Part shown: one piece after another, positions 6,585 to 64,000 of the stretch | How positions within the stretch are numbered: position 1 is the stretch's first letter | Layout of the letters: each line of letters starts with the position of its first letter | Source: Ferrimonas balearica DSM 9799 | GTDB lineage: Bacteria > Pseudomonadota > Gammaproteobacteria > Enterobacterales > Shewanellaceae | Direction of reading: 5' to 3' | NCBI RefSeq assembly: GCF_000148645.1 | Contig: NC_014541.1 | Span: 2,255,139 to 2,319,138 of the forward strand | Length of the DNA: 64,000 bases | Translations under genes and position numbers: made by a program | Notes under the pieces: model-generated | Told to the model about the DNA's origin: nothing | Databases searched by the model: none | What the model saw: the letters and a program-made list of their open reading frames with translations, nothing else

Positions 6585-7949
6585 ATGGACACCCTTACCG
6601 AACTGGTTGGCACCATTAACGGCATCGTGTGGGGCATCCCCATGCTGGTGCTGATCCTCGGGGTTGGCCTGTACCTCACCACCGGGCTGCGCATGATGCC
6701 CGTACTGAAACTCGGTACCGGCTTCCGGCTGCTGTGGCAAGGGCGCAAAGACAGCGGCGAAAAAGGGGACATCAGCGCCTTTAACGCCCTGATGACCTCG
6801 CTCTCCGCCACCATCGGTACCGGTAATATTGCGGGGGTGGCGACCGCCATCGCCATGGGCGGGCCCGGCGCCCTGTTCTGGATGTGGTGTACCGCCCTGG
6901 TGGGTATGGCCACCAAATACGCCGAAGCGGTCTGCGCCGTGAAGTACCGTGAAACCGCCGACAATGGCGAATACGTTGGCGGCCCGATGTATTACATCAA
7001 GAACGGCCTCTCCTCCCGCTGGACCTGGCTGGCCACCGCCTTTGCCCTGTTCGGCTCCGTCGCCGGCTTCGGCATTGGAAACGGCGTGCAGTCCAACTCC
7101 GTGGCTTCGGCGCTGCAGGACAGTTTCGGCATCCCGGTGGAAGCCACCGGCGTGGTGCTGATGCTGTTGGTGGGTGCCGTACTGATGGGCGGCATCAAGC
7201 GCATCGCCACCGTTGCAGGCAAGCTGGTGCCGCTGATGGCGGCCTTCTACATCGGTGCCGGCTTGATCGTGCTGACCCTGAATGCCAGTGCCATCCCCGG
7301 TGCCATCGCCCTGGTGGTGGAGAGCGCATTCAACCCGGTCGCCGCCACCGGTGGCTTTGCCGGCGCTGCGGTCTGGGCGGCCGTTCGCTTTGGTGTGGCC
7401 CGAGGGGTGTTCTCCAACGAAGCAGGCCTTGGCTCCGCCCCGATTGCCCACGCTTCAGCCAAAACCAACGATCCGGTCCGACAGGGCCTGATCGCCATGC
7501 TGGGTACCTTTATCGACACCCTGATTGTCTGCTCCGTTACCGGCCTGGCCATCGTGGTCACCGGCGAATGGACCACCGGGGTGTCCGGCGCCCCGTTGAC
7601 CTCTGCCGCTTTCGGTTCCGTCGTGCCCCAGGGTGACATCATCGTTGCCATCGCACTGGCCGTGTTTGCCTTTACCACCATTCTGGGTTGGAGCGTGTAC
7701 TGCGAGCGTTGCGTTCAGTACCTGTTGGGTGAGAAAGCGGTCAAACCCTTCCGCCTGGTATTTACCCTGGCGGTACCGGTGGGCGCCATCGCGACTCTGG
7801 ACTTTGTCTGGCTGCTGGCAGATACCCTCAATGCCATGATGGCGATCCCCAACCTGATCGCTCTGGTGCTGCTGAGTCCGGTGGTGTTTAAGCTGACCCG
7901 TGAGTACTTTGCCCGCGGCGATAAGGCCCCGTCCGCCAGCAAGGCCTGA
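6585..7949 (+). CDS. Sodium:alanine symporter family (AGCS) transporter
   Basis: A 454-residue polytopic membrane protein with about 10-11 helices. Family hallmarks are GDISAFNALMTSLSATIGTG near residues 65-84, GGPGALFWMWCTALVGMATK soon after, and GVFSNEAGLGSAP near residue 280. AGCS carriers import alanine, glycine or related amino acids with sodium across the inner membrane. AAGGAG lies just upstream of the ATG. It has its own terminator and is flanked by gaps, so it is monocistronic. The substrate cannot be assigned beyond small neutral amino acids. Confidence 0.92.
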   Translation: MDTLTELVGTINGIVWGIPMLVLILGVGLYLTTGLRMMPVLKLGTGFRLLWQGRKDSGEKGDISAFNALMTSLSATIGTGNIAGVATAIAMGGPGALFWMWCTALVGMATKYAEAVCAVKYRETADNGEYVGGPMYYIKNGLSSRWTWLATAFALFGSVAGFGIGNGVQSNSVASALQDSFGIPVEATGVVLMLLVGAVLMGGIKRIATVAGKLVPLMAAFYIGAGLIVLTLNASAIPGAIALVVESAFNPVAATGGFAGAAVWAAVRFGVARGVFSNEAGLGSAPIAHASAKTNDPVRQGLIAMLGTFIDTLIVCSVTGLAIVVTGEWTTGVSGAPLTSAAFGSVVPQGDIIVAIALAVFAFTTILGWSVYCERCVQYLLGEKAVKPFRLVFTLAVPVGAIATLDFVWLLADTLNAMMAIPNLIALVLLSPVVFKLTREYFARGDKAPSASKA

Positions 7950-7963
7950 CCTCAGCCTTTCAC

Positions 7964-7997
7964 CAACGCCCCGGCCCTGCGCCGGGGCGTTGTTATT
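7964..7997 (+). terminator. Intrinsic terminator after the AGCS symporter
   Basis: CAACGCCCCGGC (7964-7975) pairs with GCCGGGGCGTTG (7981-7992) around a 5-base loop, followed by TTATT. Confidence 0.88.
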
Positions 7998-8076
7998 TAG
8001 CCTCCCCACTTTGCGCTGGCTCGCCTAGAGTTACTCAACGCCGAAGTATCCCCTTTGCCGTTGGGAGTGCGCCCTC

Positions 8077-11000
8077 ATGTCCCGAACCATCCTGTATCTG
8101 CTGCTTTTGCTGGTCAGCCCAACCCTGCTCGCCCACTCAGTACAATGGTCGGCCTCGCCGGATCGCAGCCAACCACAGTCATTGGAGAACGCCAGCCTCA
8201 ACGGCACGGTGTACGTCTTTATCGCGCCCAGCTCCGAGCTGAGCCAGGTGCAGTTTTATATTGATGGCAACAAGGCCAAAACCGAGAATGTGTCGCCCTG
8301 GGATCTGGGCGGTACCGCAGGCGACAACTCCGCCCTGCCCTATGACATGTCGGCATTGGGGGACGGCCTGCATCGGATGGACGTGGTACTGGTGAACAAA
8401 GACGGCAGTGTTGTGGAGCAAAGCCTGAATTTTCAGGTGGGTGACCCCACCCCGACACTGACCAGTTCCCCGCTATCACTGGCGCTGAGCAGCATTGAGG
8501 GCGAAACCGTCTCCGGCACATTGACCCTCAGTACCCTCGGCGGCGAGTCCACCTCCGTGGTTTTAGCTGAAAACCACGATTGGCTGTCGCTTTCAGTGGC
8601 CAGCGGCATCACCCCATTCAGTGTTGCAGTCAGTGCCGATCCCACCGGCCTGGCGGATGGCCAGTACCCGGCAAAGATCACCGCCAGTGCCGATGGTTAC
8701 GCCCCGATCACCCTCAATGTCAGCCTACAGGTGGGTGAACCGGCGGGGGAAGATGCCCCACAACTTCATCTCACCTGGAACCACGATCAGAGCGCGGTTA
8801 CCGCAGTGTGGTTTACCCCCGCAGATGGCACCCAATCGGAGCTGCAATACCGGCTTACCGGTGCCACTGAGTGGGCCTCCGTGGTCGGCTCGGTTCGCCA
8901 CAGCAACGAGGATGGCTGGTATCACCAGGCCACCATCGCCCCAGTGACCCGTGGCGGTCAGTACGACTACCGGGTGCGGCTGAGCAGCGACGCCTTCAGC
9001 CGGGTTTATCAAACCCGTGCCCAGCCAGCACCGGGGCAAAGCTGGGACCTGACCTTTGTCGCCGATACCGGCCTGTTGGGCCGTCTCGATGGCCTGACTA
9101 ACGGTACCCAGGCGGTGATCGACGCCATGGCCGCCATCGCACCGGACCTGATCCTGCTGGGCGGCGACTACGCCTACTACGACAAGGACAAGCGCTACGG
9201 CACACTGGAGCGAAGCATCGATGCCTGGTTTAACCAGATGGCCCCCCTGGCGCCCTTCGCGCCAATGATGCCGGTCTACGGTAACCACGAGATCCTCAAT
9301 AACGAGGGGTTCGAGTTCTGGCATGCGCGCTTCCCCACCCCAGCCCACTGGCGTTATGACGGCGGGCGCATGTACGCCTTTGACGTGGGCGATGTCCACT
9401 TTATCGCCGTCTATGCCCTGCGTGAGTCGAATGATGGGATCCCGCTCGACGCGGTCGCATGGCTGGAGAGCCACCTGGCCGAAGTGAAGAATGCCGGATA
9501 CCGTTGGATCATCCCCTATCTCCATGCCGCGCCCTTCTCCGATGGGGCCAACCACGTCTCGGCGGAAACCATTCGCGGCCATATCGCCCCGCTGTTTGAG
9601 GCGGCCGGTGTCAAACTGGCGCTGTCCGCCCATGACCAATCCTATGAGCGCACCTACCCTCTGGACGACGCCGCCGGTGCAATTATCGTGACCGATACCG
9701 ACACCGACTGCGTTGACCGGCAAGGCGGCATCACCTGGATGAAGATCAGTCCCGGCGGCAAGATGAGTGACAAGAACGACGGCTTCTCGCCCTGGATGAC
9801 AGAGCCGCCGCCCTACTGGACCGCCCGACGGGATAACACCGCCCACCATTTCGGCCACCTGAGCTTTGACCCGGGCGGCGATGTCACCATCTCGGTCTAT
9901 CAGGTCACCGATGGCCAACCGGTTCAACTGTTCGACCAGTTCCGGCTGACCGAGAGCTGCGACGGCCCCAGCCTTGTGGCACAGCCAACCACCCTCGACT
10001 TCCGGCTGGCCCAAGGCGAGACCGGCCAACAGTCGCTGCTGCTGACCCATCCACAGTCCGGGCAGGCCATCAGCGTCTCTGAGTCCGCAGACTGGTTAAG
10101 CCTGGCGCCCACCAGTGGCGTCAGCCCGCTAACCATCACGGTCACGGCGGACAGCCAGGGGCAGGTTTCCGGCTCCCGGGAAACCACCATTCAGGTGGAC
10201 GGTGGCGATGGCAGCCTGACCGTGCCGGTACGGCTGACGGTAGAGCAGGATGGCTACCAACTGGTGATGAATGAGGACAGTCTGCGCAGTAACCCCCGGG
10301 CACTGGACGGCGCCACGGTGGCATCACCGCTCTATGTCGAGTTGTTGCCCTGGGACAACGTGCGCCGTGTTCGATTCTTTATTGACGGCGAACGGGTCAA
10401 AACCGAGGGCGTCGCCCCCTATGACATGGCAGGCACCGGTGACAACGATACCGCACTGCCCTTCAGTCTGGAGGGCTATGCTCAGGGGCCGCTGGCGCTG
10501 CGGGCCGACATCGAGATGCTGGATGGCACGTTCCAGTCCACCTACGCCGATATCCAGTACGGCACTCCGGAGCCGACCCTGAGCGTTATGCCCACCTCAC
10601 TCAGCAGCACGCTGGTGTTGCCCCAGACTCAAGCGCAACTGAGTCTGTCATTCAGTGGCTCTGAACCGACTCAGGTGACGCTGACCAGCAGCGCCAACTG
10701 GCTTAGTGTCGGTGCCGGCCCATTCAGCACACCCGCCGTGGTGCCAGTGAACATTGACGCCAGCGGGTTACCCAGTGGTCAATTCCAGAGCCAGATCCTG
10801 GCCAGCAGCCCTCTGGGTGACACCACTGTCCCGGTGACGCTGGTGCTGCAACCTGAACCCGGCGACGACTCCCCCATTCAGTTGTCGTTGCAGCCAGACC
10901 GCAGTGGCGCCACGCCCCTGGCGGGACAAACCGTATCCGGCCAGATCTACGTGTTTGTGGCAGACGACAGCGCCGATAAGGTGCGCTTCTACCTTGATGG

Positions 11001-11181
11001 CAATGCGGTGCAAACCGAGTACAACGCGCCGTGGGATCTGGCGGGCACCAGCAGCGACAGCGGCCGCCCGGCCAACCCCTTCGATACCGCGACACTCAGT
11101 ACCGGCTCCCACCTTCTTGAGGTCGAAGTGGTGGGCAGCACCAGCCAGCGCTACAGCGCCAGCTTTACCGTTACGCGCTGA
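8077..11181 (+). CDS. Secreted modular metallophosphoesterase (purple acid phosphatase-like) with repeated Ig-like and BACON-like modules
   Basis: A 1034-residue exported protein. The signal peptide is residues 1-19 (hydrophobic core LYLLLLLVSPTLL, cleavage after AHS or LLA). Order: Ig-like unit (about 45-122), BACON-like beta module (125-222), fibronectin-like N-domain (226-320), calcineurin-like phosphoesterase (324-626), BACON-like (634-723), Ig-like (750-828), BACON-like (831-927), Ig-like (933-1034). Each Ig-like unit contains V-x-F-Y/F-x-D-G and P-W/Y-D-x-x-G-T. Metal ligands expected of the purple-phosphatase type are D330, D364, Y367, N403 and H483, but the final GHxH-type motif reads A-H519-D-Q521-S-Y-E-R, with Gln for the second His. 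Probably an extracellular phosphoester hydrolase; substrate unknown. Confidence 0.85.
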   Translation: MSRTILYLLLLLVSPTLLAHSVQWSASPDRSQPQSLENASLNGTVYVFIAPSSELSQVQFYIDGNKAKTENVSPWDLGGTAGDNSALPYDMSALGDGLHRMDVVLVNKDGSVVEQSLNFQVGDPTPTLTSSPLSLALSSIEGETVSGTLTLSTLGGESTSVVLAENHDWLSLSVASGITPFSVAVSADPTGLADGQYPAKITASADGYAPITLNVSLQVGEPAGEDAPQLHLTWNHDQSAVTAVWFTPADGTQSELQYRLTGATEWASVVGSVRHSNEDGWYHQATIAPVTRGGQYDYRVRLSSDAFSRVYQTRAQPAPGQSWDLTFVADTGLLGRLDGLTNGTQAVIDAMAAIAPDLILLGGDYAYYDKDKRYGTLERSIDAWFNQMAPLAPFAPMMPVYGNHEILNNEGFEFWHARFPTPAHWRYDGGRMYAFDVGDVHFIAVYALRESNDGIPLDAVAWLESHLAEVKNAGYRWIIPYLHAAPFSDGANHVSAETIRGHIAPLFEAAGVKLALSAHDQSYERTYPLDDAAGAIIVTDTDTDCVDRQGGITWMKISPGGKMSDKNDGFSPWMTEPPPYWTARRDNTAHHFGHLSFDPGGDVTISVYQVTDGQPVQLFDQFRLTESCDGPSLVAQPTTLDFRLAQGETGQQSLLLTHPQSGQAISVSESADWLSLAPTSGVSPLTITVTADSQGQVSGSRETTIQVDGGDGSLTVPVRLTVEQDGYQLVMNEDSLRSNPRALDGATVASPLYVELLPWDNVRRVRFFIDGERVKTEGVAPYDMAGTGDNDTALPFSLEGYAQGPLALRADIEMLDGTFQSTYADIQYGTPEPTLSVMPTSLSSTLVLPQTQAQLSLSFSGSEPTQVTLTSSANWLSVGAGPFSTPAVVPVNIDASGLPSGQFQSQILASSPLGDTTVPVTLVLQPEPGDDSPIQLSLQPDRSGATPLAGQTVSGQIYVFVADDSADKVRFYLDGNAVQTEYNAPWDLAGTSSDSGRPANPFDTATLSTGSHLLEVEVVGSTSQRYSASFTVTR

Positions 11182-11197
11182 CCATGATCGCTACCGA

Positions 11198-11230
11198 CAA
11201 ACGCCCGGCCCTCTGGTCGGGCGTTTTGTT
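11198..11230 (+). terminator. Intrinsic terminator after the phosphoesterase gene
   Basis: CAAACGCCCGGCC (11198-11210), loop CTCT, GGTCGGGCGTTTTG, then T-rich sequence. The stem has one G-T wobble. Confidence 0.85.
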
Positions 11231-11289
11231 GTGCACCAACCGGCCGATCCAGGCGTACAACCACCATCAATGGCCAAAAGGACAACACC

Positions 11290-12597
11290 GTGAAACGCGC
11301 CCTGCTTTGGTTCCGTCACGATCTCAGACTGGACGACAATCCTGCGCTGCTTCGCGCCGCCCAGGCGAAAGAAGCGCTCTTGTGCCTCTACTGCATTGAG
11401 CCCCGCTGGTTTGTTGCTGACAACTGGCAGAGCCGCCGCGTTGGCGACCACCCCTGGCGCTTTATCAGCGAGAGTCTGCTCGACCTGGCCAACCGCCTGG
11501 AGGCTCTGGGACAACAGCTGGTGATACGCATCGGTGACCCCAACACCCTCATACCCGGGCTGATGCGCAACCACTGGATTGATAAGCTGATCTGCACCGC
11601 CCCCTTTGGCGAGGAGGAGCGCCGGCAATATCTGGCCCTCAAGCAGGAGGTGGGTGAACACCGCTGTGAAGTGTGGCAATCCCATACATTGTTCACCCTT
11701 GAGCAACTGCCCTTTGCACTGGATGAACTCCCCCCCACCTTCAGCCAGTTCCGCCGCCGGGTGCAACGGCTCGAATGGCGCCCGCTGTATCCGCCCGTCA
11801 CTGAGCTCCCCAAACCTCTGGCGCTGACCAGTGAAACACCGCCTCCGGTCAGCACCCCACCCAATCCACAATACCAGGGTGGACAGACCGCGGCAGAGGC
11901 GCACCTGGCGCACTATCTGGCTGGCGCCGCGCCCAAACACTACAAGCAAACCCGAAACGCACTGGATGATTGGTCCAGCTCCACCAAGTTGTCGCCCTGG
12001 CTCGCGCAGGGCTGCCTCTCGGCCAGAACCGCAGTGGCACAGCTGGAGGCGTATGAAGCACAGCATGGCGCTAACGAGTCTACCGAATGGATCCAGGTCG
12101 AGCTGCTGTGGCGGGAGTATTTTCAGTGGCTGGCGCTTGCCCACGGCCACCGCCTGTTCGCCTTTACCGGCACCTCCGGCGTTCGCCGCCCCTGCTGCTT
12201 CTACCCGGAGCGTTTTGCCCGCTGGTGTCAGGGGCAAACGCCCTACCCCATCGTCAACGCCGCAATGAACCAACTCAATGCCACCGGCTTCCTGTCGAAT
12301 CGGGCCCGCCAGTTGGTGGCCAGTGCGCTGGTGCATGAACTGGGGCTGGATTGGCGCTACGGAGCCGCCTATTTCCAGCAACAGCTGATCGACCATGATG
12401 TCGCCTGCAACTATGGCAACTGGCAGTACCTGGCTGGGGTGGGCGCTGACCCAAGAGGCTGGCGCCACTTCGATCTGGACAAACAAACGGCACTGTATGA
12501 CCCGGATGGCGCGTTTGTTCGCCAGTGGCAGGGGTTGCCTGTGGCTCAGCTGGACAGTCTGGATGCCGCCGACTGGCCGGTACAGGAGGTGCCATGA
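11290..12597 (+). CDS. DASH-family cryptochrome
   Basis: A 435-residue photolyase/cryptochrome protein. The N-terminal WFRHDLRLDDNPALLRA opens the Rossmann domain that holds the antenna chromophore. The C-terminal FAD domain ends in NYGNWQYLAGVGADPRG, typical of CRY-DASH. The family repairs cyclobutane dimers, preferentially in single-stranded or looped DNA, and may signal blue light. It starts at GTG with AAGGA seven bases upstream. It is the first gene of a four-gene operon in which every junction overlaps by four bases. Confidence 0.9.
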   Translation: MKRALLWFRHDLRLDDNPALLRAAQAKEALLCLYCIEPRWFVADNWQSRRVGDHPWRFISESLLDLANRLEALGQQLVIRIGDPNTLIPGLMRNHWIDKLICTAPFGEEERRQYLALKQEVGEHRCEVWQSHTLFTLEQLPFALDELPPTFSQFRRRVQRLEWRPLYPPVTELPKPLALTSETPPPVSTPPNPQYQGGQTAAEAHLAHYLAGAAPKHYKQTRNALDDWSSSTKLSPWLAQGCLSARTAVAQLEAYEAQHGANESTEWIQVELLWREYFQWLALAHGHRLFAFTGTSGVRRPCCFYPERFARWCQGQTPYPIVNAAMNQLNATGFLSNRARQLVASALVHELGLDWRYGAAYFQQQLIDHDVACNYGNWQYLAGVGADPRGWRHFDLDKQTALYDPDGAFVRQWQGLPVAQLDSLDAADWPVQEVP

Positions 12598-57454: not shown

Positions 57455-58126
57455 ATGACCCTTTCCGGCGTAATCACCGGCGACATCATCCGTTCTCAAA
57501 CTCTGGATAAGGAAAGCCAAGCCGCCGCTCTGGCGGCCCTGGAACACACCCTCAACTGGTGCCAAAAGCACTACGGTGTCCGGGGCGAGCTGTACCGTGG
57601 TGATGCCTTTCAGGTGTTGGTGGATCAACCCCAATACAGCCTGCTGGTCGCGCTGTTATTGCGGCTGGCACTGCGCACCCTTCGCTCCGGCAGCGACCCC
57701 ATCGACGCCCGTATCGCCATCGCCATCGCCCCGGCAGAGCAAGAACCAGAGCGGGTGGCGACCGGACGGGGTGAGGCCTTTGTGCTGTCCGGCCGACAAC
57801 TGGAGTCGATGAGCGAGCAACGACTGGCGTTCTCCAGCCCTTCCCCTGCCCTGCAGCTTTTTCTGCCGGTGCTGTTCCGGTATCTGGACACCCATATCAG
57901 TGGCCTTAACCACAATGCCGCCACCGCGCTGCAGCTGAAGCTGCTGAACCCGGAGCTGACCCACGACGCCCTGGCTGAGAGGATGGGGGTGGGTCGCACC
58001 TCCTACACCCGCTTTATCAATCGCGCTGGCATCGACACGCTGCTGGACACGCTCGCCATGTTCGAAAAGGCAGCAGCCTGTGATAGCTTCTGGGATGGAA
58101 GGGAGATGAATTTCAAAAGGGATTAA
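57455..58126 (+). CDS. SatD-family protein
   Basis: A 223-residue protein starting MTLSGVITGDIIRSQTLDKE, which I recognise as the SatD family. The N-terminal part, with GDIIRS and LYRGDAFQVLV, resembles a cyclase/diguanylate-like fold in outline. The C-terminal LTHDALAERMGVGRTSYTRFIN is a helix-turn-helix-like segment. A DUF3307 gene follows nine bases later, a pairing commonly seen for the family. SatD was named in Streptococcus acid-tolerance work; its biochemical role is unclear. The promoter is packed with TGTGCA boxes. Confidence 0.83.
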   Translation: MTLSGVITGDIIRSQTLDKESQAAALAALEHTLNWCQKHYGVRGELYRGDAFQVLVDQPQYSLLVALLLRLALRTLRSGSDPIDARIAIAIAPAEQEPERVATGRGEAFVLSGRQLESMSEQRLAFSSPSPALQLFLPVLFRYLDTHISGLNHNAATALQLKLLNPELTHDALAERMGVGRTSYTRFINRAGIDTLLDTLAMFEKAAACDSFWDGREMNFKRD

Positions 58127-58906: not shown

Positions 58907-58919
58907 ATCGGCCATAAGA

Positions 58920-58951
58920 AAAGCGGAATGGTTCCCCATTCCGCTTTTTTT
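58920..58951 (+). terminator. Intrinsic terminator of the satD operon
   Basis: AAAGCGGAATG (58920-58930), loop GTTCCC, CATTCCGCTTT (58937-58947), then T to 58951. It also faces the arrB end and could terminate on the minus strand. Confidence 0.92.
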
Positions 58952-58968
58952 GGCATTCACCCTGCAGC

Positions 58969-59670
58969 TCAGCTCTGGCTGACCGAAAACGTCCGGATGT
59001 AGTAGACGTTCGGACCGGTGCCGGCTTCCGGCTTAAGCTGACGCGGTGCGTGCAGCTTAATCAGGCGGGACACCTCGGAGTTGGGATCCGAAAGATCCCC
59101 CACCACCCGGGCGCCAGAGGGGCACGCCGTCACACAAGCCGGCTTGAGACCGACATTGATGCGGTGGTCGCACAGGGTGCACTTCTCTACCGTCCGACGG
59201 GGGCGAGTTACCGGATAGGTATCACCGCGTTCCGGATTCTCATACGGCAGATGTTTGGCGCCGGTGCGATCCAGCACCATCTTCGGCGACGCCGTCCCAC
59301 CCGGGATCAACGCTTCATCATCCTGCCAGTGACGGTGGGGCGCACTGCGGTTCATGCCAATCACCTGATAGGGGCAGGCGCGAACACAGCGCTGACATCC
59401 GATGCAATCTTCATTGCGGTGAAGTGTCAGGCCGTTGTCTGCCTTGTACATGGCCCCCGTTGGACACACCTCAACGCAGGCTGCATTGTCGCAGTGGTTG
59501 CACAATGTCGGGATGTAGTTGAACCCTACCTTGGGGAAGGTCCCCACGGTTTCGGTGATGTGGTGGGACCAATGAATGTCGTCCGGAGTGTTGTTCTCCG
59601 TTTTACAGGCGATATCGCAGCCACCGCAACCTACGCACTTCTGCAAGTCAATTACCATGCCCAGTTTCAT
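58969..59670 (-). CDS. arrB: Respiratory arsenate reductase FeS subunit ArrB
   Basis: A 233-residue protein with four [4Fe-4S] ferredoxin motifs, beginning MKLGMVIDLQKCVGCGGCDI, then C-N-H-C-D-N-A-A-C, C-I-G-C-Q-R-C-V-R-A-C and C-T-L-C-D-H. The strings HWSHHITETVGTFP, ENPERGDTYPVTRPRR and LKPEAGTGPNVYYIR match my memory of Shewanella ArrB (about 234 residues). It carries electrons to ArrA. The start is 11 bases after arrA. No signal peptide: exported with ArrA through Tat. Confidence 0.87.
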   Translation of the reverse strand: MKLGMVIDLQKCVGCGGCDIACKTENNTPDDIHWSHHITETVGTFPKVGFNYIPTLCNHCDNAACVEVCPTGAMYKADNGLTLHRNEDCIGCQRCVRACPYQVIGMNRSAPHRHWQDDEALIPGGTASPKMVLDRTGAKHLPYENPERGDTYPVTRPRRTVEKCTLCDHRINVGLKPACVTACPSGARVVGDLSDPNSEVSRLIKLHAPRQLKPEAGTGPNVYYIRTFSVSQS

Positions 59671-59681
59671 GTTACGGCTCC

Positions 59682-62246
59682 TCAGGCTTTCTCAATACGG
59701 ATACGGATATGGCCGTAGTAAGCGGACGCGCCGCTCAAACGATCAAACCGGCTTGGGATGATGTCGTTGTTGTTGCCACCACGCGGTTTCTTACCGAACA
59801 CCTCTGCGGCAACCCGTCCATAGGCATAGTGGCCGTGGCCGAAACACTTGGCGACGGAGCCCGGACGCACCCCCTCCCACAGCCGTGCCACGCATTCAAT
59901 CGAACCAACGTCACTGACCAAGCGGATGCGATCGCCATCCTTCAGGCCCAGTTTGCGGGCATCAACGGGGTTGATCTTGGCTGAGTCCTGGCCAGCAACA
60001 TCGCCGGGGTTCACATCGTTAAAGGCATGAGCCCAGGTGGTGTTAGCCGATCGCCCTTCATGGTTAAGGCGGGACTTTTGATCCACCAGTAACAGCGGGA
60101 ACTGTTCAGCGTCACCGACCCGAACCGGCGCTTCATAATGCGGCACAAAGGCTTTCTCACCACTGACCGCATACTCGCTGGCCGCCATCACTTCATCGAC
60201 GCTGACACCATGCTTTTCCGCATGTCCGGCCAACGCTTTCTTCAGGGTTTCGCTGTAGAACTCAAATTGACCGGTGGCGGTTTTGAATTTGCCCCAGCGC
60301 GCCTGGTACGGGTACGGCTTGGAGTTCCAGACCCCCTTCTCAACAAACTCCTGCCAGCCGCTGAGCTTGTCACCGTACTTACTGGCATCTTGTTGCCAGA
60401 GCGGTGCTGTCACGTACTTCACTGCGATTTCGGCAAACTGGGCTTCATCGGCAGCGGGCTTGCCGGTTTCCGGATCCAGGATCTGCTCATTGATGTAACG
60501 CCAGGGGGCATCGAAGCCCTTCTCCGCCAGCTTCTTCGCCAACAGGTATGGCACTTCGGTTTCATCCTGACGGGTATCGTACAGACGCTGAATGGAGGGA
60601 CGCTGAATCGACACATGGCTGTGGCCATTACCAGCCGCAGACAGCACACCCCACTTCTCAAACATGTGGTGGTTAGCCGGCAACAGCAGGTCCGAGAACC
60701 AGCTGAACTCCGAAACGTTGGTGGTAACGTGAGCAATAAACTTCACCTTCGACAACGCTTGCTCCCAACGCTGGGTTTCCGGCGCGGAGTACACGAAGTT
60801 GTTGAAGTACGCCAGCATCACTTCGATGTCATAGGGGTCACCAGCGTTGATGGCGTTGGCCACGTTATCGGTCACCACACCACCGCCGGATTTTCCTTTC
60901 TTCAGGGCCGGGAAGCCCAGGCGGCCACGCTGGTCGATCTTCTCCTGCTTTACCCCAGCCTTGGCAACGTCGTCCAGATAGGGTTTGGCACTGGGGAAGC
61001 TCTTATTGAGCGGCGCTTTGTTGTAGGGGAACAAGCCGCCCTGGCTGTCGATGGCGCCAAACAGGCCGTTCAATGCATGGCAGGCCAACGAGGTGTAACT
61101 GCCCCGCACCTGCATGGTCGGGCCACGGGAGGTCCACACCTGAATCGCCGGGGCCGCAGCCCCCATATCCCGGGCGATGGTCCGGATGGTATCGGCATCG
61201 ATGCTGGTGATCTCAGCCGCCCAGTCGGCGCTGCAGCGGTTCAACTCCAGGTTCCACCACTCCACCAGACCGTGGGTATGGCGCGCTTCAAACTGGCTGG
61301 CATCAACCTGCTGGCCGGCCTTAAAACGGTTTTTGCCGTCCTTAAAATCACCGACAAAAGGCTTGTGCCACAGACCGGCCACCATCGCCTCGTGGGCAAT
61401 GGCCAGCGCCAGCGCCGCATCCTGACCGGTTTCCACCGGCACCCACAGATGGGCTTTGGCCGCAGACGCGGAAAGGCGCGGATCGACCACCACCACCTTA
61501 GCGCGATCCAGGGTGTTGCCCCACTCACTGGAGTAGTGGCTGACCTGGCGATTACTGGCGATGGGATCCGCACCAAAGGAGAGAATGTATTTGGTGTGCT
61601 TGACGTCGTACTGGTTGTAGCCCCAGTTACCATCCTGGAAATAGGGCCCCATCTTGTGGGACTCAGCGCAGATGGCGCTGTGGGAGATATTGTTGGGCGA
61701 GCCAATCAGGTTGGTCATCTGCTTGTAGAGCAGATCATTGACCAAGGAGTAACGCCCCCGGAGCAGCGCGTATTTGTGACTTTCGTTCTTACTGCGCAAA
61801 GCCAGGATCTGGTCCGCCAGCATCTCCATCGCCTTATCCCAGCTGATGGGGACAAACTTGGGGTCTTCACCCCGCCCCTTCTTGGGGTTGGTGCGCATCA
61901 TGGGCACGCGCAGACGGTCCGGATCATAGACCATCTGCAGACCCAGATGCTGACGGGGACAACTGGAGGTGTCGTGGATCTTAGAGTGGGGATTGCCCCG
62001 CACCTTAGTGGCACGGCCATCCATGATATAAACCTGTTTGGCACACCAGGAGGTGCAACCCTGGCAGGTTGTCGGCACCCAGGTACCGGTACCGGTTCTC
62101 AGGTCCACCTTCGGCAGAGCCTGCTCCATCGCCTCGGCGACAGGTTGAAACAGGAAGCCACCACCCAGTCCCAGCAAAACGGAGCTCGCGGCCGTCCCTT
62201 TGAGGAGATGTCGACGTGTACGGTCGATCGATTTATCGTTTTTCAT
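59682..62246 (-). CDS. arrA: Respiratory arsenate reductase molybdopterin subunit ArrA
   Basis: An 854-residue DMSO-reductase-family protein. The Tat signal is T-R-R-H-L-L-K-G (residues 10-17). The [4Fe-4S] ligands are C61, C64, C68 and C96, and the Mo ligand is probably C193 in SHSAICAESHK. R165, Y166, H189, S190, K198 and Y210 fall where I recall the active-site residues of Shewanella ANA-3 ArrA, and the length matches. It reduces arsenate to arsenite in the periplasm with quinol-derived electrons. ATG 62246 has GGGAA six bases upstream; a longer start lies inside promoter-like repeats. The main alternative is an ArxA-type arsenite oxidase. Confidence 0.87.
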   Translation of the reverse strand: MKNDKSIDRTRRHLLKGTAASSVLLGLGGGFLFQPVAEAMEQALPKVDLRTGTGTWVPTTCQGCTSWCAKQVYIMDGRATKVRGNPHSKIHDTSSCPRQHLGLQMVYDPDRLRVPMMRTNPKKGRGEDPKFVPISWDKAMEMLADQILALRSKNESHKYALLRGRYSLVNDLLYKQMTNLIGSPNNISHSAICAESHKMGPYFQDGNWGYNQYDVKHTKYILSFGADPIASNRQVSHYSSEWGNTLDRAKVVVVDPRLSASAAKAHLWVPVETGQDAALALAIAHEAMVAGLWHKPFVGDFKDGKNRFKAGQQVDASQFEARHTHGLVEWWNLELNRCSADWAAEITSIDADTIRTIARDMGAAAPAIQVWTSRGPTMQVRGSYTSLACHALNGLFGAIDSQGGLFPYNKAPLNKSFPSAKPYLDDVAKAGVKQEKIDQRGRLGFPALKKGKSGGGVVTDNVANAINAGDPYDIEVMLAYFNNFVYSAPETQRWEQALSKVKFIAHVTTNVSEFSWFSDLLLPANHHMFEKWGVLSAAGNGHSHVSIQRPSIQRLYDTRQDETEVPYLLAKKLAEKGFDAPWRYINEQILDPETGKPAADEAQFAEIAVKYVTAPLWQQDASKYGDKLSGWQEFVEKGVWNSKPYPYQARWGKFKTATGQFEFYSETLKKALAGHAEKHGVSVDEVMAASEYAVSGEKAFVPHYEAPVRVGDAEQFPLLLVDQKSRLNHEGRSANTTWAHAFNDVNPGDVAGQDSAKINPVDARKLGLKDGDRIRLVSDVGSIECVARLWEGVRPGSVAKCFGHGHYAYGRVAAEVFGKKPRGGNNNDIIPSRFDRLSGASAYYGHIRIRIEKA

Positions 62247-62263
62247 TTCCCATTCCCATATCT

Positions 62264-62290
62264 GCATATGCGGTTAGGCATATATTATGC
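62264..62290 (-). promoter_or_regulatory. arrA core promoter region with GCATA palindromes
   Basis: GCATATGC (62264-62271) and GCATA-TAT-TATGC (62278-62290) are nested palindromes just before arrA. On the minus strand the second contains CATAAT (62284-62289), a 5/6 match to a -10 box, giving a start near 62277. The dyads are candidate operators for the divergent ArsR. Confidence 0.45.
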
Positions 62291-62307
62291 GGACGGGAAA
62301 ATTATGG

Positions 62308-62323
62308 GGTGACCCTAGTCACA
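62308..62323 (-). promoter_or_regulatory. CRP-like site upstream of arrA
   Basis: On the minus strand TGTGA-CTAGGG-TCACC matches the CRP core TGTGA-N6-TCACA at 9 of 10 positions. Its centre is about 39 bases from the inferred arrA start point, close to a class II activator position. Confidence 0.6.
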
Positions 62324-62387
62324 GGGACAGTTTCCTTACTCGCAGAAGGGTCAGAACCCCGATCTTTGGCACGCTTTAGAAATCCAG

Positions 62388-62403
62388 TGTGAGTTACGCC
62401 ACA
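62388..62403 (+). promoter_or_regulatory. Second CRP-like site in the arrA/arsR spacer
   Basis: TGTGA-GTTACG-CCACA also matches the CRP core at 9 of 10 positions. It is 80 bases from the first site and 234 bases before the arsR start. The remainder of the spacer (62404-62636) has no supported gene; it should contain the arsR promoter. Confidence 0.45.
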
Positions 62404-62636
62404 AACGAGTGTGCCGCCCTCTCCTGCCCCTTAACCATGGGACTTACCGGCAGTTTTAGCTCAGCGTGGTCATTAAATGCTCAGGGGTTGGGTGGCTGGG
62501 AGTGGGATCCGGTTCACATCATCGCAACGAGCCGCGCCGTAATAAACGAGAATCGCTCGCAACGCTCTCTTTGCCGTCATCCTTATGTCACAATATTGCG
62601 TTGCAGTCGCCCGGTTACCCACGCCAAAGGAGTTTT

Positions 62637-62984
62637 ATGATCCACCCCGTTGCCGCCTTTAAAAGCCTGGCTGATGAAACCCGGCTCAGCATCATGCTGC
62701 TGATCCAGCAGCAGGGTGAACTTTGTGTGTGCGAACTGTCGACTGCACTGGACCAGAGCCAGCCGAAAATCTCGCGTCACCTGGCCCGATTGCGCAGCGA
62801 CGGGCTGCTGACCGATAACCGGCAGGGCCAATGGGTGTTCTATGCGCTGGCAGAACTGCCACAATGGATGACCGACACCCTAACCGGCATCGCCGAAACC
62901 AGTCCTCAATTGCTGAGTCCCCTCTGCGCCCGACTGGCTGAAATGGGTGACCGGCCCCAGCGGCGCGAGTCGCTGTGCAGCTGA
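62637..62984 (+). CDS. arsR: ArsR-family metalloregulator (arsenic-type)
   Basis: A 115-residue winged-helix repressor. E-L-C-V-C-E-L near residues 24-30 is the As(III)-binding Cys pair of classic ArsR. LDQSQPKISRHLARLRSDGL is the recognition helix and DNRQGQWVFYAL the wing. AAAGGAG lies four bases before the ATG. It is divergent to arrAB, which supports an arsenic role for that operon. Further Cys at the C-terminus could add ligands. Confidence 0.93.
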   Translation: MIHPVAAFKSLADETRLSIMLLIQQQGELCVCELSTALDQSQPKISRHLARLRSDGLLTDNRQGQWVFYALAELPQWMTDTLTGIAETSPQLLSPLCARLAEMGDRPQRRESLCS

Positions 62985-63207: not shown

Positions 63208-64000
63208 ATGACACACCCAAACTCACTATCCACCCCAATCTCGCTTCAACAACTGGGATGGAAACCCGTTTTTCAACAACAGGTCGAACTGGACCAGTGG
63301 CAAGACACCCCCGCCCGGGTGTTTGCCGTTCACCGTAACCGGTTGGACATCGTTACCGAACAGGGCGAACTGAGCCTGCCCCTCACCCCAGGGATGCCAC
63401 GCATCACCGTCGGTGACTGGCTGCTTCTGGGCGAGCAGGCTCAGGATGTCACCCTGCTGGAGCGACGCAGCCTGTTTCAGCGGAAGGCCGCCGGTACGGC
63501 ATTGGAGGCACAACTGATCGCCGCCAATGTCGATACCCTGTTTATCGTCAGTTCGCTGAATGATGACTTTAACCTCAACCGGCTGGAACGCTATCTGGCG
63601 CTAGCCCACGAGGCGGAAGTGGAACCGGTGATCGTACTGACCAAGGCCGATCTCTGTGACGAGCCTGACACCTATGTTGGTCAGGTACAACGGCTTGATC
63701 CGCTGCTGATGGTGATCGCCGTCAATGGCCTCGACAGCAGCACTGCCGAGCAACTGGCGCCCTGGTGCCGCAGTGGCAACACCGTGGCATTGATGGGCTC
63801 CTCCGGGGTGGGCAAATCCACCCTGGTGAACACCCTGCTTGGGGGCGAGGTGCAGAGCACCGGCACCATTCGTGAGGACGACAGCAAGGGGCGGCACACC
63901 ACAACCGGCCGGTCGCTTCACCTGATGCAACACGGTGGCCTGCTGCTGGACACACCCGGTATGCGGGAGCTGCAGCTGACCGATTGCGAACAGGGCGTCA
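63208..64000 (+). CDS. rsgA: Ribosome small subunit-dependent GTPase A, N-terminal part (3' end outside window)
   Basis: 264 residues are visible before the window ends. An OB-fold (RNRLDIVTEQGELSLPLTPG, VGDWLLLG) precedes a circularly permuted GTPase in the order G4 (LTKADL near residue 145), G1 (GSSGVGKSTLVN near 200) and G3 (DTPGMREL near 250). This order is diagnostic of RsgA, which aids 30S maturation. GGGAA lies before ATG 63208. The 223-base gap after arsR has no supported gene. Confidence 0.9.
   Translation, partial: MTHPNSLSTPISLQQLGWKPVFQQQVELDQWQDTPARVFAVHRNRLDIVTEQGELSLPLTPGMPRITVGDWLLLGEQAQDVTLLERRSLFQRKAAGTALEAQLIAANVDTLFIVSSLNDDFNLNRLERYLALAHEAEVEPVIVLTKADLCDEPDTYVGQVQRLDPLLMVIAVNGLDSSTAEQLAPWCRSGNTVALMGSSGVGKSTLVNTLLGGEVQSTGTIREDDSKGRHTTTGRSLHLMQHGGLLLDTPGMRELQLTDCEQGV

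Follow-up and report, generated by a model that had tools for sequence, protein, structure and literature searches.

A predicted respiratory arsenate reductase (ArrAB) locus with a divergent arsR gene in Ferrimonas balearica DSM 9799

Genes and features of the locus

We analysed a stretch of 64,000 nucleotides (hereafter the window) from the genome of the marine iron reducer Ferrimonas balearica DSM 9799, which consists of a single contig of 4,279,159 bases. The following features were recognized at the locus.

59682-62246, minus strand: arrA, predicted Tat-exported molybdopterin catalytic subunit (854 aa) of a respiratory arsenate reductase (NF041714, 6cz7_A, tree, active-site letters)
58969-59670, minus strand: arrB, four-cluster FeS subunit, 233 aa (NF041715, 6cz7_B, cysteine groups)
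62637-62984, plus strand: arsR, ArsR/SmtB repressor of 115 aa with an ELCVCEL site, divergent from arrA (NF007528, sequence)
58919-58948, strand unassigned: stem-loop of 13 pairs between arrB and a convergent DUF3307 gene (fold energy)

The arrA gene comes first and is separated from arrB by 11 bp, and 390 bp lie between the starts of arsR and arrA. We take the ATG at 62637 as the start of arsR; in the profile and tree runs the protein was read from 62643, two codons further on, and in that form it scored 108.1 bits with NF007528 (cut-off 97). A preliminary description of this DNA had proposed an 854-residue Tat-exported molybdoenzyme with C193, R165, Y166, H189, S190, K198 and Y210, a four-cluster FeS partner, and an ArsR with a C-V-C site transcribed the other way. 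The residues of the molybdoenzyme were all found at the claimed positions, and the ArsR protein was borne out by its ELCVCEL sequence and the orientation of its gene. The FeS partner also exists, with 16 cysteines in four groups, but arrB lies just outside the interval 59682-62984 given for the locus.

The convergent DUF3307 gene adjoins arrB, and an RsgA-like GTPase gene is located beyond arsR (Pfam). No membrane-anchor family was detected in a Pfam scan of the eight locus proteins. The sequence 58908-58955, containing the stem-loop, folds with -25.6 kcal/mol, a value equalled by none of 200 shuffled sequences, and the stem-loop is absent from the output of a consensus terminator scan; it is a likely terminator shared by arrB and the DUF3307 gene. 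In the flanks, the RsgA-like GTPase (63208-63999) is seemingly a second copy, since another RsgA-like match, more distant at 35% identity, is present at 555 kb, and a 223-aa frame beside the DUF3307 gene (57455-58126) has no Pfam or NCBIfam match at E 0.001.

Family identity of the enzyme

The twin-arginine stretch of ArrA (RTRRHLLKG) precedes a hydrophobic stretch, and the N-terminal FeS motif of the protein is C61-x2-C-x3-C-x27-C96. Both subunits exceeded the cut-offs of NCBIfam equivalog models: ArrA reached 1678.5 bits with NF041714 (cut-off 1600) and ArrB 477.7 bits with NF041715 (cut-off 450). Their best solved relatives were 6cz7_A (E=0) and 6cz7_B (E=2e-116), chains of a structure which we take to be ArrAB of Shewanella sp. 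ANA-3. Residues R165, Y166, H189, S190, C193, K198 and Y210, reportedly active-site residues of the ANA-3 ArrA structure with C193 as the Mo ligand, were kept in 25/25 ArrA rows, that of the window included. The letters RGRY together with K198 were present in all 25 Arr rows, whereas the four Arx-like rows without exception had GRGW, which is a mark of Arx, and no K at position 198.

The tree was composed of 37 rows (25 Arr, 4 Arx-like, 5 PsrA/PhsA-like and 3 DMSO-reductase-like, with no known TtrA row), in which the Arx, Psr and Dms labels are our own, derived in part from gene context and scores. It included 23 of the 25 starting arr loci, L032 (partial) and L033 (20.7% identical) having been left out, and a protein scoring 1109 bits, below the ArrA cut-off (L097, genome G258), was counted as Arr by its tree place. 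The Arr rows, with the window ArrA inside, formed one clade (support 100/100), and the Arx-like rows (n=4) a separate one (100/100); the program cautioned that long branches come together at the outgroup. One row labelled psr (L136) had a very long branch and stood apart from the other four PsrA/PhsA-like rows. The earlier claim of ArrA identity was not refuted by the tree, in which the window row lies outside both the Arx-like and the PsrA/PhsA-like rows, and the NCBIfam cut-offs, the 6cz7 chains and the active-site letters all agree with it.

Two other identities of the enzyme were considered. It might be an ArxA-type arsenite oxidase working in the reverse direction, as ArrA and ArxA are adjacent clades within one lineage (stated in PMC7331816 and visible in our own tree). 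However, the window protein belongs to the ArrA clade, the Arx-like rows having a clade of their own; it lacks GRGW and carries ArrA-type letters at positions 163-166 and 198. Two of the four Arx-like rows were opened, the plasmid loci L102 (Cereibacter azotoformans) and L103 (Sulfuricella denitrificans), whose records speak of a molybdopterin-dependent oxidoreductase, Arx being our label. These operons share the larger ArxA/ArrA lineage with the window, but they differ in their clade, in GRGW and in possessing a second FeS gene, an NrfD anchor, a TorD-family chaperone and a two-component system, none of which was found among the scanned locus proteins of the window; the TorD-family matches of its genome are all located outside the window. 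A reversed ArxA is therefore very improbable. A thiosulfate, polysulfide or selenium-oxyanion reductase of the PsrA/PhsA type would be consistent with the use of selenate, selenite and thiosulfate by the strain (PMC3035368), but ArrA reached only 233 of the 694 bits required by the PhsA model, and it is a separate paralogue at 4.099 Mb of the same genome that joins the PhsA-like rows, the distant PhsA-like-labelled row L136 excepted. We regard this identity, too, as having hardly any chance of being correct. The assignment of the window locus to ArrAB by family is supported by the equivalog cut-offs, the structure relatives, the tree place and the active-site letters, and every family test run agreed with it.

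The window ArrA and its counterpart in Shewanella sp. ANA-3 (L029) share 70.2% identity; ANA-3 likewise has an ArrA-ArrB pair and all seven active-site letters. ArrA proteins above the cut-off were found in 27/146 genomes of the family and 12/14 of the genus (own genome included), so the trait is likely to be widespread in this genus; in a draw of 398 genomes from the phylum there were two, namely the own genome and one other of the genus. Among 403 plasmid records, the best two matches were 33% identical and Arx-like where opened, and two records outside the 15 rows listed had a place at 60-80% identity.

The arsR-arrAB module and the unlinked resistance genes

The ArrAB locus is ordinary and well supported, and the arrangement of its module is a small extra. 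We searched for neighbouring ArsR genes by tblastn with the window ArsR (E 1e-5, at least 35% covered) in the window and 22 named loci (L009-L030). In three of them, the window and the sister loci L009 and L010, the two genes are directly divergent, with ArsR next to arrA; the upstream DNA of L012 is too short for a judgement. In 12 other loci, ArsR was present elsewhere in the fetched flank, e.g. just past arrB or at the end of an acr3 operon. ArsR is thus common near arrAB, and only its divergent position is special. In ANA-3, in contrast to the window, the nearest detected ArsR is on the same strand as arrB, at a distance of 3.8 kb downstream.

Comparison of the window with L009 and L010 (blastn, E 1e-5) revealed two blocks of similarity. 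The first begins at the arrB stop codon (58969) and ends at 62287 or 62289, and the second extends from 62546 or 62536 to 62962 or 62977, i.e. 7-22 bp before the end of arsR. No similarity was found outside the arsR-arrAB module, and the DNA common to L009 and L010 was also this module alone. Among the tblastx matches listed, the extra pieces were scattered, short and weak, and the neighbouring genes of the window, used as queries, were not found beside arrAB in either locus, apart from a 28% LysR piece in L010. (The title of the L010 record, NZ_JAHVJZ010000004.1, is Marinobacter nauticus DP3N21-5, which looks wrong; the genome seems to belong to the genus of the window.) Since the module is kept and its neighbours differ in all three loci, it has remained intact in changing surroundings. 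The module may have relocated as a unit, or the DNA around it may have been rearranged.

A search for the two flanking genes in 14 genomes of the genus (own included) yielded no clean empty site for the module. DUF3307 was matched in 7/14 genomes and the RsgA-like GTPase in 14/14, in five of them only distantly (at most 38% identity). In sister genome G021 the two genes are about 600 kb apart, on a different contig from arrA, and sister genome G029 has no DUF3307 match. In a tree of ArsR proteins (22 short rows), the window ArsR and those of both sister loci formed a group (90/98, not starred), an origin from the acr3-linked ArsR being neither favoured nor disfavoured by this tree.

The preliminary description had also remarked on the absence of other ars genes in view. 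This holds for the families covered by the search, namely Acr3, ArsB and ArsC, none of which has a match in the window, and HTH_5 (ArsR), whose sole match there is the divergent arsR. The absent genes sit elsewhere in the genome, and resistance is therefore unlinked rather than missing. The resistance operon is the following.

7715-11397 of locus L093 (acr3 at 434 kb of the genome): arsR2-acr3-GAPDH-arsJ, above the NCBIfam cut-offs for acr3, ArsJ-associated GAPDH and ArsJ

This operon is located about 1.9 Mb from arrA. Two ArsC-family matches were also detected, of which that at 1.41 Mb passes the cut-off for glutaredoxin ArsC and that at 2.72 Mb is half a bit above the threshold of an "ArsC family reductase" model. 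In the genus as a whole, Acr3 over the cut-off and ArsC matches were each found in 14/14 genomes and ArsB in 0/14; among the 12 genomes that carry arrA, four (G007, G012, G023 and G027) have Acr3 at a distance of no more than 6 kb from it. F. sediminicola (L014) and F. futtsuensis (L015) have ArrA proteins 74-75% identical to that of the window, but their arrAB genes directly face arsJ-GAPDH-acr3-arsR, the genes that are distant in F. balearica.

The gene arrangement is compact, apparently moved and slightly unusual, and the enzyme is of a well-known kind. It is possible, although we would not expect it, that in the F. balearica group arsR-arrAB constitutes a self-contained 4-kb cassette, split from the resistance operon and relocating as a unit, with one ArsR for respiration and one for resistance, both reading one kind of operator.

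The promoter region and the proposed mechanism

Alignment of the three divergent regions revealed three kept elements: a CATAT-type box near arrA, a GGTGA-N6-TCACA box located upstream of the first, and a stretch that precedes arsR. Two candidate sites were defined.

62265-62285, plus strand: candidate ArsR operator before arrA, CATATGCGGTTAGGCATATAT (sister conservation and likeness to the arsR2-acr3 promoter)
62308-62323, strand unassigned: candidate CRP site, GGTGACCCTAGTCACA, with 9/10 letters of the CRP consensus (kept in three sister promoters; judged from sequence)

The operator box is largely kept in both sister loci, and the CRP-like box occurs at the same place in all three. A consensus sigma-70 promoter scan found no promoter at arrA. 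A probe of 21 bases from the arsR2-acr3 promoter, chosen after the likeness had been seen, matched the arrA-side box at 17/21 positions in the window (0/200 shuffles as good), 15/21 in L009 (1/200) and 16/21 in L010 (0/200). Over 23 arrA upstream regions (L012 left out), the same probe, whose ATAT ends match AT-rich promoters easily, gave P <=0.05 in 14 and >0.05 in 9. We also scanned the genome with a pattern composed with both boxes in view. With at most one mismatch it had two matches in the whole genome, the arrA and arsR2-acr3 promoters, the arrA box being the second best; with at most two mismatches there were three matches vs two for a reversed control. In the window, up to three mismatches gave one match, which is at chance level (shuffle mean 0.59; present in 48/100 shuffles). 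The probe and pattern tests are not independent, because both were composed after the promoters had been seen.

The arr genes of ANA-3 are reportedly under ArsR and CRP control. We consider the window to hold a canonical ArrAB respiratory arsenate reductase operon, probably controlled by its own divergent ArsR, and give this reading a probability of about 0.92. Alternatively, the enzyme is ArrAB but the adjacent ArsR is not its controller, arrAB being governed either by the unlinked ArsR2 or solely by CRP. In favour of this, ArsR2 could bind the CATAT box, which is located towards arrA and is similar to the ArsR2 promoter, and the best probe match on the arsR side is only 12/21. Against this stands the retention of the divergent pair in three genomes with different surroundings, which suggests that arsR and arrA are used together. 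Control without the adjacent ArsR is, in our opinion, unlikely.

In the preferred reading, that of ArrAB under its own ArsR, ArsR bound to the CATAT box about 20-40 bp upstream would repress arrA until released by arsenite, and CRP on the box about 60-80 bp upstream would activate it anaerobically. ArrA, loaded with Mo-bisPGD, would carry ArrB along through the Tat pathway, as its signal suggests. By analogy with the ANA-3 system, menaquinol would supply the electrons, and a CymA-like tetraheme cytochrome would relay them to the four FeS clusters of ArrB and on to Mo, held by C193, where arsenate would be reduced to arsenite in the periplasm. Cytoplasmic arsenite would leave the cell through the unlinked Acr3, and arsenate by way of the unlinked GAPDH-ArsJ pair.

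Arsenate respiration by F. balearica is thus predicted from its genes. The accessible part of PMC3035368 reports menaquinone in this species and includes selenate, selenite and thiosulfate among the acceptors of type strain PAT-T, arsenate not being listed there; the literature searched, partly accessible and with most subscription journals outside its coverage, yielded no report of arsenate respiration in Ferrimonas. The locus thus leads to a clear, testable prediction: the type strain, which is known to respire iron and selenium, should breathe arsenate as well. Such respiration converts mineral-bound arsenic to mobile arsenite in marine sediment, and the unlinked layout with its own regulator offers a simple system for asking how arsenic respiration and resistance stay in step.

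Five proteins of the NapC/NirT family are encoded in the genome. Three of them were scanned with NCBIfam and one proved to be TorC. The protein at 771 kb looks the most CymA-like by eye and is over no NCBIfam cut-off. According to PMC6295460, CymA is involved in arsenate reduction in strains ANA-3 and CN-32, and F. balearica has a CymA homologue, described in an mtr-like cluster. This published homologue may be one of the proteins at 1.54 Mb instead of that at 771 kb. Three NapC/NirT-family matches lie close together at 1538300-1542680 of the contig (G000:C1), possibly as part of a metal-reduction cluster.
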